Shown here: positions 49,867 to 54,324 of the stretch, one piece after another
Numbering within the stretch: position 1 is the stretch's first letter
Layout: every line of letters begins with the position of its first letter
Source: Candidatus Omnitrophota bacterium
Lineage (GTDB): Bacteria > Hinthialibacterota > Hinthialibacteria > Hinthialibacterales > JAKPRU01
Assembly (NCBI GenBank): GCA_029570205.1
Contig: JAKQSI010000004.1
Location: 49,887-113,886 of the forward strand
DNA: 64,000 nt
Direction: 5' to 3'
The notes under the pieces: generated by a model
What the model saw: the letters and a program-made list of their open reading frames with translations, nothing else
Told to the model about the DNA's origin: nothing
Database searches by the model: none
Position numbers and translations under genes: made by a program

Positions 49867-50046
49867 AACTATCGATCTACAGGCAGCGTATCAAGGGTTT
49901 CCAAAACGGTCAATGCCAGTTAATGGGATAACAGGCAGGGTGGACACGCCTGCTTTTCCGTCATTGTGCTACACTCAAGCCCGCACTGGGGCTTTGCCGT
50001 GCAGGAATGGCCTCCTTTGTTCTATGAGTTGTCGGAGAATACTTTT

Positions 50047-52638
50047 GTGAATCCGGAAGATCGGACCAAAATGCGCTCACGTTTGCAGACGCGGCTTTGG
50101 TCGGCAACGGTTGCCGTCAGTCTTGTTCTGTTGGCGGCTTGCGCTTCGGGACCGCCCGAAGGAAGCGAACTGACATTTGCTTTTTTACCTCAGCCTCTTA
50201 CCCTGGACCCGGCACGCTGTGACAGCGAGCTCGACCGGATTCTCTGCACGCTTCTGTATAGCCGCCTTGTCCGGCTCAATCTTGATGGAGTCCTGGATCC
50301 GGAATTGGTAATCGAACCGGATTGCCCGGCGGGCATAAACCCGGAAGATTGGACCGATCTGGAATTGGAGCGTCAAATTGCCGCGCCGAACGGACTGGTA
50401 TTCTCCTTCCAGATCAATCCCAAGGTCCGGTTCTCGAATGGTCGGCCTGTTTCCGTGCGGGATATCCGGTATTCCTTCGAGCGGCTGATGGATCCGCTGA
50501 CCCAATCGCCGTATGGGTGGATGATTCAGCCCATCCTGGGCGCATCGGATTTTGCGAGGGCGAAAGAGGATCAGATCAAGAATCTCCCAGCGGACCCGAT
50601 TGCCCTCGATAGGATTGTGGGGATCGAAGAGATCGACTCCAGCACAATCCGTTTTCGGCTGACCGATCCTTATGCGCCGTTTCTGCACAGCCTCTCACTT
50701 CCGGCAGCAGGCATTCTGCCCGCGACGGAAAGCGAGGCAGCTATCGGGGATGCCACGGCGCAGTTTCCACTGGCTCGGTTGGGCAGCGGGCCTTGGGAAC
50801 CGGAATCCATCGATCCGACACGGGAAATTGTCCTCAAGGCCAAAGAAAACCATCCCGCGCGCGCGTTCATCCGCACTGAGCGACTCCGGTTCCAGATTGT
50901 GAATGATTCGGAAGAGATCGAACGGCTTTTTCTTAATGAATCCGTGGCGTTGATTGACCTGGTTCCGGAACAGCGAGCCAAGTGGCTCCAGAATCCGGCT
51001 TATCGGGAGCAGATTATTTCGGCGACACATCCCTCTACTACGCTGCTCGGATTCAATTTCAGAAAACCGCTATTTCAGAATCTTCAGGTACGGCGGAAAG
51101 TCAGGGAGACAATTGATCCCAGCCGGATCGCGAACGACATCGGGGCACATTTGGTGGTTACGTGCGAAGGACTGCTGCCTCGAAACCTGATCCATGTTTC
51201 CCATGTCTCACGCTTGCCGGAAATACCGCTTTCGCCAGATGAGAACCTCGGTTCCGGTTGGCCTGTGTTGATATTGATCTCGCCTGCCGGGACTCTTTTC
51301 AGCCAAACTGCGGAACACATCCGGCAGGATATGGCGGGCATTGGGGTATCCCTCGATATCCGTCTTCTCGAACAACCGGAGTACGGACAATCTTTGCAGA
51401 ACGGTGATTTCGATCTTGCGATCCTTTCGGTGAATACCCTGTCACCGGACCCGCGTGAGATGCTCTCGATTTTCCTGATCCCGGAAGGAGTTCCGGGGGG
51501 GCGCAACGTGACCCGATACGCAAATCCCGACTACGATGAGATTGTGAAACAGTCGGATATGACTCCCGGATTCCGGGACCGGAGCCGCTTGTATCTAAAA
51601 GCAGAGGATTTGCTTCGCCTGGATTGTGCGGCGGTATTTCTGTGGCATCCGGTCGATTTCCGGATTCGACATAAGTGGCTTTCGGGATTCCGATATTCGC
51701 CGTTCCCTTCCCAGGTCACCTGGAACGGGATGTTTCACGAGACCAATGAGAAACGATATGAGAGTCCGGCAAATCTTCCGTCCCTGGAGAAAAGGAAAAA
51801 GAGAATATCGGGGGAATTGACTATTGCGACAGCGGTTATTCTGGGGTTTGTGCAGGGGCTGACGGAGTTCCTGCCGATTTCCAGTTCGGGCCATCTGAAA
51901 ATCCTGGAGCATCTTCTGGGGCTTCCGGGCGGGGCGCAATACCTGTTTTTCGATTGCCTGTTGCATGTGGGGACTCTGCTTGCGGTGCTGCTGTTCTATC
52001 GAGCGGATCTGAAGGTTCTGCTGAAAGCGCTCCTGGACGCGCCGAAGGAATACGTGACTTATTTCAAGGCCCAGAAGAAGGAAAGGAAACTGAGTGAGCC
52101 GGTTGCTTTTCTATCGTATATTCTAATCGGAACTCTTGTAACCGGGGTTTTTGGGCTGATATTTAAGGACATCCTGGAATTGCTGTTCGACAGCTTGCCG
52201 GCGGTGGGATTCGCACTCATCATGACTGGGGTTCTCTTGCTGGCGGCCAAGAATCCGAGAAAGCAGTTGAACCCGTCCGATCTGTCATTCAAGACAGCGG
52301 CGAAGATCGGTCTGGCGCAGGGATTTGCGATTATCCCCGGTCTGTCCCGTTCCGGGACAACGATTGCCGTGGCGCTGATGCTCGGTGTGAGGAGGGAAAT
52401 GGCGGTCCGGTTCTCCTTTCTTCTATCGGTTCCGGCGATTGCAGGCGCTACACTCCTGGAGGCCATGGAAACAACCCGGAAAGTGGCATTGATTCCCGCG
52501 CTGGCTGGAACCGTGATGGCTTTTCTTTCCGGTCTGTTGTTTCTCTGGTTTCTGGTGTTGCTGGTTCGGAAAGAACGGTTCCATGTTTTTGCTTATTACA
52601 CGATCCCACTCGGAATCCTGGTTCTGTTCGGTTTGTGA
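50047..52638 (+). CDS. fusion of family-5 solute-binding lipoprotein and undecaprenyl-diphosphatase UppP
   Basis: 863 residues in one uninterrupted frame. Residues 1-32 are a lipoprotein signal with lipobox VLLAAC (Cys32). Then an oligopeptide/nickel-type SBP_bac_5 domain (to ~560): EGSELTFAFLPQPLTLDPA, LVFSFQINPKVRFSNGRPVS, SYFERLMDP-like RYSFERLMDPLTQSPYG, DLAILSVNTLSPDPR, RLDCAAVFLWHP. A ~30-residue polar linker follows, then complete UppP/BacA (591-863): GFVQGLTEFLPISSSGH with Glu607 and His616, and PGLSRSGTTIAVALML with Arg768. A TTG at 51817 could start UppP separately, but no stop separates the parts. GTG 50047 has CGGAG ahead; ATG 50071 is an alternative. UppP recycles undecaprenyl pyrophosphate at the outer face of the membrane. 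Confidence 0.85.
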   Translation: MNPEDRTKMRSRLQTRLWSATVAVSLVLLAACASGPPEGSELTFAFLPQPLTLDPARCDSELDRILCTLLYSRLVRLNLDGVLDPELVIEPDCPAGINPEDWTDLELERQIAAPNGLVFSFQINPKVRFSNGRPVSVRDIRYSFERLMDPLTQSPYGWMIQPILGASDFARAKEDQIKNLPADPIALDRIVGIEEIDSSTIRFRLTDPYAPFLHSLSLPAAGILPATESEAAIGDATAQFPLARLGSGPWEPESIDPTREIVLKAKENHPARAFIRTERLRFQIVNDSEEIERLFLNESVALIDLVPEQRAKWLQNPAYREQIISATHPSTTLLGFNFRKPLFQNLQVRRKVRETIDPSRIANDIGAHLVVTCEGLLPRNLIHVSHVSRLPEIPLSPDENLGSGWPVLILISPAGTLFSQTAEHIRQDMAGIGVSLDIRLLEQPEYGQSLQNGDFDLAILSVNTLSPDPREMLSIFLIPEGVPGGRNVTRYANPDYDEIVKQSDMTPGFRDRSRLYLKAEDLLRLDCAAVFLWHPVDFRIRHKWLSGFRYSPFPSQVTWNGMFHETNEKRYESPANLPSLEKRKKRISGELTIATAVILGFVQGLTEFLPISSSGHLKILEHLLGLPGGAQYLFFDCLLHVGTLLAVLLFYRADLKVLLKALLDAPKEYVTYFKAQKKERKLSEPVAFLSYILIGTLVTGVFGLIFKDILELLFDSLPAVGFALIMTGVLLLAAKNPRKQLNPSDLSFKTAAKIGLAQGFAIIPGLSRSGTTIAVALMLGVRREMAVRFSFLLSVPAIAGATLLEAMETTRKVALIPALAGTVMAFLSGLLFLWFLVLLVRKERFHVFAYYTIPLGILVLFGL

Positions 52639-52734: not shown

Positions 52735-54324
52735 TCAGTTACTTTTGCGGACCGAAATCTCAGAGACCGCCAATGATCCCGCGAAAATTGCGAGACGGAA
52801 ATCGGCGGCCCCGTTCTGGCGATTGACAAATCGAGCATCCGTCAATGAAAGACTCGCTGTTTTCCATTCACCGCTATTCTCACAGCGAACAACAGTCGAG
52901 TCTTTATACACGCCGTTCAGGGTGGCCTTGCGGTCGTGCGAATCGTATTGCAGAAGGAATTGCGAGAATCCCGTGTCGAGATAAGCCACCCGAATCTCGA
53001 TGGGACGCTGTTCCTCAAACGAAAACGGATCGGCGATGGAGAAATAGAGATACGTGGTGTTCTTTGTTTCAGGTGAAAACAGGCAAGACCGCCCGGCCCG
53101 CTCGCCGATAGACACCGGCCCGTCGGGTTGACCTCGTACCAGGTAAAGCCCTTGCTCCTTCAGACCGTCCTCAAGAAGTATTTGTACAGATTCGGCGTTT
53201 GCATACTCTTTCCCGATTTGCGACCCCGGTCTCGGTAGCGGATCGGGATATTTTAATTCAATCTGCTCCGTCGATTGTTCGTTCTTCTTGAACTTGTCGG
53301 CGAATTCCGCCGTCAAACGGATGTATTGATCTCCGTATTCTCCGGATCGGCAGACATCCGTTCCCTCGTGCATTTCATTCCAGGTTTCAATGAGAGCAAT
53401 TCGGGCATCGCTGCGCAACACTTGCAGCCATCCCCATTTGTAGAAATTGCCTCCTTCACGATCGCGGATGGGGGTGGAGCGCCCGGGAACGGCGCTGTCG
53501 TTATAGCCCGGCCCGACACACGCCACCCCGTGAAAACTCGGCCCGTCCAGCGCGGCTCCCCAGGCGTAGACGTTCTCCGTTTTCATATTCCAGGAAACCT
53601 CTCGGATGATATACGGTCGAATACCGTGAAACTCGGATGCGAACTGCTCATACACATAGTCCGCAGTGGATTGGTCGTGCCCGGAGGCGAATCCGGACCC
53701 GTACAGCACAACGATGGGTTTTCCGTCGATAGCCGCCCAGTGTTCGGGTTTAATCTGTTGAAAGAAATCCCGGATGGTGCGATAGAAGAGATCTTTTCCT
53801 TCCGGCGCAGTGAGGTCGGGCTTCGCCGGTTCGCCGGATTTTCTGCGGACTCCCGCGAGAAGGGTGGAGGTGTCATAGAACAGACCGATTTTCGGGACAG
53901 GCTCCCCCCGACGTTGGCGTTCTTCAATGGCCCGTTGAAGCGGTCCGAGGCCGCGCACGCTGAACCACGTGCCGACGGAAAAATAGTTATCCAATGTTCC
54001 CCAATACACCGGCAGGATGAAATCAATTCCCGCTGCCGCGATATCCGCAAGTTCCCGCTCATGCCAGGCGACGGAGTTATAGCTCACCATCTCCGGTTCC
54101 GGGAAATGATCCTGCAGGGCATCATCCTGATAAGCCCCGTCATCATAGAAATGCTCATCGGGATAATCGTACCAATAGAAATAGTACGTTCCTACAATAC
54201 GGTCCCGGGATGAAAAACTCTCGATTTTCGACAGGCGATTTTCATTCCAGTTTACCGCGAACTGGGCGTAAACCGACCCGGCGATCCACACCATCAAAAG
54301 AAAAACGACCGATACGCGACGCAT
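52735..54324 (-). CDS. secreted GH99-like/DUF5010 protein with C-terminal beta-sandwich
   Basis: 529 residues. Signal peptide MRRVSVVFLLMVWIAGSVYA. The catalytic-type (beta/alpha)8 domain starts GTYYFYWYDYPDEHFYDDG, with WHERELADIAAAGIDFILPVYWG, KPIVVLYGSG and IALIETWNEMHEGTDV, the acidic strand end where GH99/GH71-like enzymes carry catalytic Glu residues. Residues ~390-529 form a carbohydrate-binding-like beta-sandwich (YLYFSIADPFSFEEQRPIEI). AAGGAGA before the ATG. Probably an endo-acting glycan hydrolase; linkage unknown. Confidence 0.78.
   Translation of the reverse strand: MRRVSVVFLLMVWIAGSVYAQFAVNWNENRLSKIESFSSRDRIVGTYYFYWYDYPDEHFYDDGAYQDDALQDHFPEPEMVSYNSVAWHERELADIAAAGIDFILPVYWGTLDNYFSVGTWFSVRGLGPLQRAIEERQRRGEPVPKIGLFYDTSTLLAGVRRKSGEPAKPDLTAPEGKDLFYRTIRDFFQQIKPEHWAAIDGKPIVVLYGSGFASGHDQSTADYVYEQFASEFHGIRPYIIREVSWNMKTENVYAWGAALDGPSFHGVACVGPGYNDSAVPGRSTPIRDREGGNFYKWGWLQVLRSDARIALIETWNEMHEGTDVCRSGEYGDQYIRLTAEFADKFKKNEQSTEQIELKYPDPLPRPGSQIGKEYANAESVQILLEDGLKEQGLYLVRGQPDGPVSIGERAGRSCLFSPETKNTTYLYFSIADPFSFEEQRPIEIRVAYLDTGFSQFLLQYDSHDRKATLNGVYKDSTVVRCENSGEWKTASLSLTDARFVNRQNGAADFRLAIFAGSLAVSEISVRKSN

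Follow-up and report, generated by a model that had tools for sequence, protein, structure and literature searches.

Gene structure at the locus

The lipid carrier on which cell wall synthesis depends is recycled by UppP, as a rule a membrane enzyme without further domains, which hydrolyses C55-PP on the periplasmic side of the membrane. The stretch of DNA analysed here (the window, 64,000 nucleotides) lies on contig C93 of a draft genome (G000; 4.39 Mb, 131 contigs), and it contains an open frame which runs from a lipoprotein signal peptide through a solute-binding domain of the SBP_bac_5 type into a full UppP domain (Table 1). A single frame of this kind had been described in a first-pass annotation made from the letters of the sequence; the frame itself and Pfam matches to both domains confirmed it. 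The lipobox named there was also recovered (LAAC, ending in Cys32); it is conserved as LGAC or LGSC in the relatives, and by inspection an export signal is present in all three species compared below.

Table 1. Parts of the fusion gene, with positions in the window
Feature	Position	Strand	Evidence
Whole SBP-UppP open reading frame, 863 aa	50047–52638	+	GTG start; TGA stop at 52636–52638
GGAG ribosome-binding site for GTG 50047	50034–50037	+	Sequence; kept in three species
Lipoprotein signal peptide and lipobox LAA-Cys32	50047–50142	+	Hydrophobic stretch at residues 17–35; LGAC, LGSC in relatives
SBP_bac_5 domain, residues 33–560	50143–51726	+	PF00496, 134 bits (cut-off 32.4), E 7e-39, in two stretches; PDB relatives; omega 0.14–0.18
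Thr416, in the position of the carboxylate-binding Arg383 of DppA	51292–51294	+	Alignment; invariant in three species
Leu465, in the position of Asp436 of DppA, which holds the amino group of the peptide	51439–51441	+	Alignment; Asp kept in nearest relatives
Linker, residues 561–590, rich in K/R and D/E, without transmembrane segment	51727–51816	+	Omega 0.08–0.21, no indels; hydropathy
UppP/BacA domain, residues 591–863	51817–52635	+	PF02673, 251 bits (cut-off 33.4), E 1.8e-74, residues 596–858, profile 1–257 of 257; 5oon/6cb2 match
Position of ancestral UppP start Met	51817–51819	+	TTG here; CTG in G002, CTC in G001
BacA1 motif QGLTEFLPISSSGH (Gln603, Glu607, Ser612, Ser613, His616)	51853–51894	+	Sequence and structure alignments
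BacA2 motif PGLSRSGTT (Arg768)	52336–52362	+	Sequence and structure alignments

Upstream of GTG 50047, 21 of 40 residues differ between G000 and the congeneric genome G001, and synonymous changes are nearly absent. Since this region diverges without a protein-coding pattern, and both the GTG and its GGAG are common to all three species, position 50047 is a sound start; a second candidate start, ATG 50071, is likewise kept in the three species. The convergent neighbour (52735–54324, minus strand) codes for a protein whose N-terminus resembles a signal peptide, with similarity to DUF5010 or, weakly, to glycosyl hydrolase family 99.

Conservation of the junction and topology of the chain

Two congeneric genomes, G001 and G002, both metagenome-derived and deposited as Candidatus Omnitrophota (JAKPYU010000548 and JAKPRU010000407), were available for comparison. 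All three genomes are draft assemblies of 90–94% completeness, and gene absences in them are not absolute. The products in G001 and G002 comprise 863 residues and align to the chain of the window without gaps, with 95% identity in one case and 84% in the other; the search for the same domain order in related genomes, as suggested earlier, was thus positive for two other species of the genus. Because the same junction occurs in three diverged, separately assembled and colinear sequences, a sequencing error or a stop codon lost in one assembly, which the first-pass annotation had wished to see excluded, was ruled out. That assembly or sequencing had created the frame could be argued from the draft state of the genomes involved, two of which are metagenome-derived, but with one common junction and no indel among sequences that are 84–95% identical an artefact is scarcely credible. 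Judging from these alignments, the one-chain design is genuine and is kept by selection in the genus, and expression of the full chain as a single product is likely.

Pairwise comparisons of the three species gave omega values of 0.08–0.21 for the linker, which is near the values of the SBP part (0.14–0.18) and the UppP part (about 0.10) and far lower than that of the signal peptide (0.5–0.6). In the linker (about 30 residues), which is free of indels in the three species, an excess of synonymous changes was found in all three species pairs (binomial p 0.001, 0.005 and 0.03, the pairs not being independent); the linker is evolving as protein, under purifying selection. The codon at the former start methionine of UppP is not the same in any two of the species (Table 1), and thus independent initiation there is not conserved; the internal TTG start at 51817 which had been proposed, with CTG and CTC in its place in the other two species, was not borne out. 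A programmed frameshift in the A-rich linker was likewise rejected, the AAAAAG run of G000 being absent from the other two species.

Formation of two products, with UppP freed from the SBP by internal initiation (e.g., at ATG 51730) or by proteolysis of the linker, would be distinctly unlikely. The ATG at 51730 is kept in all three species, and the charged linker could be cut; however, conservation of the stretch around this ATG is accounted for by conservation of the protein, a strong ribosome-binding site was not seen there by eye, and the best-placed start, 51817, is CTC in G001, which is not a start codon. As the SBP part has no stop, translation necessarily yields the full chain in any case, and the charged, K/R-rich stretch that precedes the first helix would disfavour N-out insertion from the cytoplasm.

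The linker bears also on the possibility of a functionally neutral fusion, in which the genes were joined in the ancestor of the genus, the halves work independently and the joining serves no purpose. UppP tolerates added domains, for example in an active BacA-beta-lactamase (PMC4641660) or in a natural UppP-TPR protein, and purifying selection acts on each half separately; on the other hand, the linker itself is constrained as protein, without indels in three species, and SBP and UppP are adjacent in no sampled relative. Such a neutral fusion seems to us conceivable, though rather unlikely. Since no sampled relative carries the two genes side by side, simple loss of a stop between old neighbours is unsupported. 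An ancestral neighbourhood of SBP and UppP was rejected, since in the sister family they are found on different contigs or loci.

Between G000 and G002 the dS values jump at the domain junction (SBP 0.095, linker 1.17, UppP 0.31; 50149–52635 compared with L070 2921–5407); towards the C-terminus, the sequence of G000 has more in common with that of G001 than with that of G002. The jump and the switch in affinity point to recombination whose boundary lies close to the junction.

In two crystal structures of E. coli BacA/UppP, the N- and C-termini are both periplasmic (PMC5852022, PMC5861054), and BacA with a C-terminal beta-lactamase fusion was active and exported (PMC4641660). The hydropathy of the fusion shows one hydrophobic segment at residues 17–35 and the next only at the start of UppP (587–591); the positively charged loops within UppP would be on the cytoplasmic side if the protein is N-out. 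From hydropathy and charge we infer an N-out topology for the fused UppP. With a periplasmic N-terminus of UppP and no hydrophobic segment after the signal, an exported SBP can therefore continue directly into the first re-entrant helix of UppP. The fold to be expected consists of two re-entrant helix pairs and six transmembrane helices, N-out; AlphaFold2 gave the helices of the UppP part in the expected order, with short pairs at 593–608/613–624 and 748–760/768–778 (pLDDT about 50–81). For the SBP part, where the alignment was too shallow, the pLDDT was mostly below 50. The conserved frame, the purifying selection on the linker, the lost UppP start and the compatible topology give good support to the earlier suggestion of a periplasmic binding domain which is tethered to UppP in one chain.

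Ligand residues and ancestry of the binding domain

The PDB relatives of the SBP part are peptide-binding proteins, among them 8upi, DppA and MppA (4toz, 3o9p). In DppA, R383 and D436 (precursor numbering) hold the carboxyl and amino ends of the peptide, respectively, and dipeptide binding is lost in the double mutant R383D+D436R (PMC12136057). The corresponding residues of the fusion are Thr416 and Leu465, with the same replacements in all three species; the permease-linked SBP relatives retain the W..D motif including the Asp. By alignment to DppA, the terminus-binding Arg and Asp of the Dpp/Opp type are thus absent from the fused SBP. A related residue argument was used earlier for HbpA2 proteins (PMC3295651). 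Because all three species carry the same substitutions at the DppA anchor positions, canonical peptide binding by the fused SBP is unlikely; another ligand, or no ligand at all, is possible.

These residues also weigh against the idea, put forward in the first-pass annotation, that binding of peptides or muropeptides couples the sensing of wall fragments to carrier recycling. The presence of the murein-peptide-binding MppA, together with DppA, among the structural relatives would favour it; yet Thr and Leu occupy the two anchoring sites in all three species, exchange of both residues in DppA is sufficient to lose dipeptide binding, and the Asp is retained in the close relatives but not in the fused SBPs. 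Such sensing is, in our opinion, very improbable.

The phylogeny of the SBP part was based on 34 SBP_bac_5 proteins, almost all of which belong to the phylum; a Treponema SBP was left out of the alignment, since it was misaligned into UppP. The three fused SBPs grouped together on a stem 2.18 substitutions per site in length; their clade joined (support 90/84) the permease-linked SBPs found in a sister family and orphan SBPs from a third one. With support of only 90/84 and this long stem, the placement by permease-linked relatives appears weakened.

In the sister family (same order), the genes of the SBP relatives (L087–L091) are followed by two permease genes, and UppP stands alone, in many cases with a gene for a conserved membrane protein behind it. 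Nothing closely similar to these permeases is encoded in the genus with the fusion, and a BPD_transp_1 search of contig C93 gave no match, so there are no linked ABC permease genes on this contig. Elsewhere in G000, on contig C56, an OppBC-like permease pair has a Glyco_trans_1_2 protein upstream instead of an SBP (L104 1680–5386). Orthologues of these permeases with 60–63% identity occur elsewhere in the order, as compared with only 45–47% for the permeases of the SBP operons, and in G013 permeases of the C56 type adjoin an SBP of the C120 type. As orphaned partners of the fused SBP the C56 permeases, the best candidates in the genus, were rejected, since their orthologues belong to another lineage.

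SBPs which serve distant permeases exist, and the fused SBP might still feed an ABC permease in trans, with UppP merely as membrane anchor. A permease pair without an adjoining SBP_bac_5 gene is indeed present on C56; its affiliation with other permeases and with a C120-type SBP, as described above, speaks against this role, however, as does the loss of the peptide-anchoring residues, and a lipobox already anchors SBPs, which would make UppP superfluous. We regard feeding of a permease in trans as unlikely.

The UppP domain and possible roles of the fusion

A UppP should possess E/QxxxE, Ser-Ser and His in motif 1 and the Arg of PGxSRS in motif 2. The catalytic set of the fusion (Q603, E607, S612, S613 and H616 in motif 1, R768 in motif 2) is conserved; Glu607, His616 and Arg768 had been noticed as intact before, to which Gln603, Ser612 and Ser613 can be added. 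In the PDB, the UppP part matched E. coli BacA (5oon/6cb2) with an E value of 1.5e-32. The NCBIfam equivalog cut-offs of the TIGR00753 and PRK00281 series, which are naming thresholds and not a family trait, were not reached (TIGR00753, 178 bits versus 217.5; best match, 186 versus 260). By Pfam, motifs and structure match, the UppP part is assigned to the BacA/UppP family; the equivalog label is not claimed.

BacA-family matches number one each in G000, G001 and G002, every one inside a frame of 904–947 codons (947 and 911 codons in the two other genomes). Among 98 genomes for which UppP places were listed, only the three of this genus had them in frames of more than 700 codons; among the other long frames, those of G032 (688 codons) and G012 (473) proved on translation to be merely open upstream, with no SBP encoded there. 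In the sampled genomes of other genera UppP is free-standing apart from one protein of 573 aa in G117 with a C-terminal TPR-containing domain (L102 2839–4557, contig C78), which was among the best matches listed for 386 genomes. The earlier statement that UppP is known only as a stand-alone protein is therefore nearly true outside the genus, the TPR-bearing protein being the exception. A scan of viral contigs yielded no relatives of the SBP and distant UppPs only, and a literature search of open-access papers did not find a report of an SBP-UppP fusion.

With E. coli BacA (PF02673; 5oon, 6cb2) the fusion shares the whole domain and the catalytic motifs and, as far as predicted, the helix pattern and the N-out topology; but whereas UppP elsewhere is free-standing, with about 270 aa, here it has no start of its own and makes up the last third of an exported lipoprotein. 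The lipobox signal and the SBP_bac_5 domain are shared with DppA, OppA and MppA (peptide/nickel-type), in contrast to which the fusion lacks a stop after the SBP, an adjacent permease and the peptide-terminus residues, and has a very long branch. Fusions of an SBP domain with an ABC permease are known from GlnPQ and OpuA, where, as in the fusion, a binding domain is tethered to a membrane protein in one chain; the membrane partner there is a permease, here a lipid phosphatase. The UppP-TPR protein of G117 resembles the fusion in carrying an extra soluble domain, which is, however, C-terminal and unrelated.

The interpretation which we consider probable is that of an exported SBP-UppP chain, in which a permease-less SBP was joined to the only BacA-type UppP of the genome and is now a periplasmic appendage of this enzyme. 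The gene would be translated into a single lipoprotein chain of about 95 kDa, exported by Sec. The SBP_bac_5 domain at the N-terminus would fold in the periplasm, whereas the C-terminal portion would insert as a complete N-out UppP, converting C55-PP to C55-P at the periplasmic face. As to origin, the likeliest course is that an SBP of an ABC-importer lineage was left without permease partners in this genus and became joined in frame to UppP; the fused SBP would have diverged strongly afterwards, with loss of the peptide-anchoring residues. Situated beside the mouth of the UppP pocket, the SBP could position or regulate the enzyme, perhaps as a docking module near the cell wall synthases, or perhaps by binding a non-standard ligand and so tuning access to the pocket. 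BacA interacts with PBP1B and stimulates it (PMC6053597).

More tentatively, and with a rather small chance of being correct, the chain could be a receptor-phosphatase, in which a ligand on the repurposed SBP opens or closes the UppP pocket; carrier-lipid recycling and wall synthesis would then respond directly to an extracellular or periplasmic signal. With its only BacA-type UppP lacking a separate start and apparently exported behind a binding domain of 560 residues, this genus would be a case from nature in favour of the N-out topology that was derived from the crystals, and the fusion would be a testable case of periplasmic regulation or positioning of carrier recycling.

Two transglycosylase-domain proteins are encoded in the genome, and therefore production of C55-PP is indicated. 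G000 has a single PAP2 domain, located at the N-terminal end of a protein in which it is fused to a PMT_2 (ArnT-like) glycosyltransferase (L073 1237–3336, contig C97). This protein was the only other candidate phosphatase found in the genome, and its PAP2 domain could supply C55-PP phosphatase activity.
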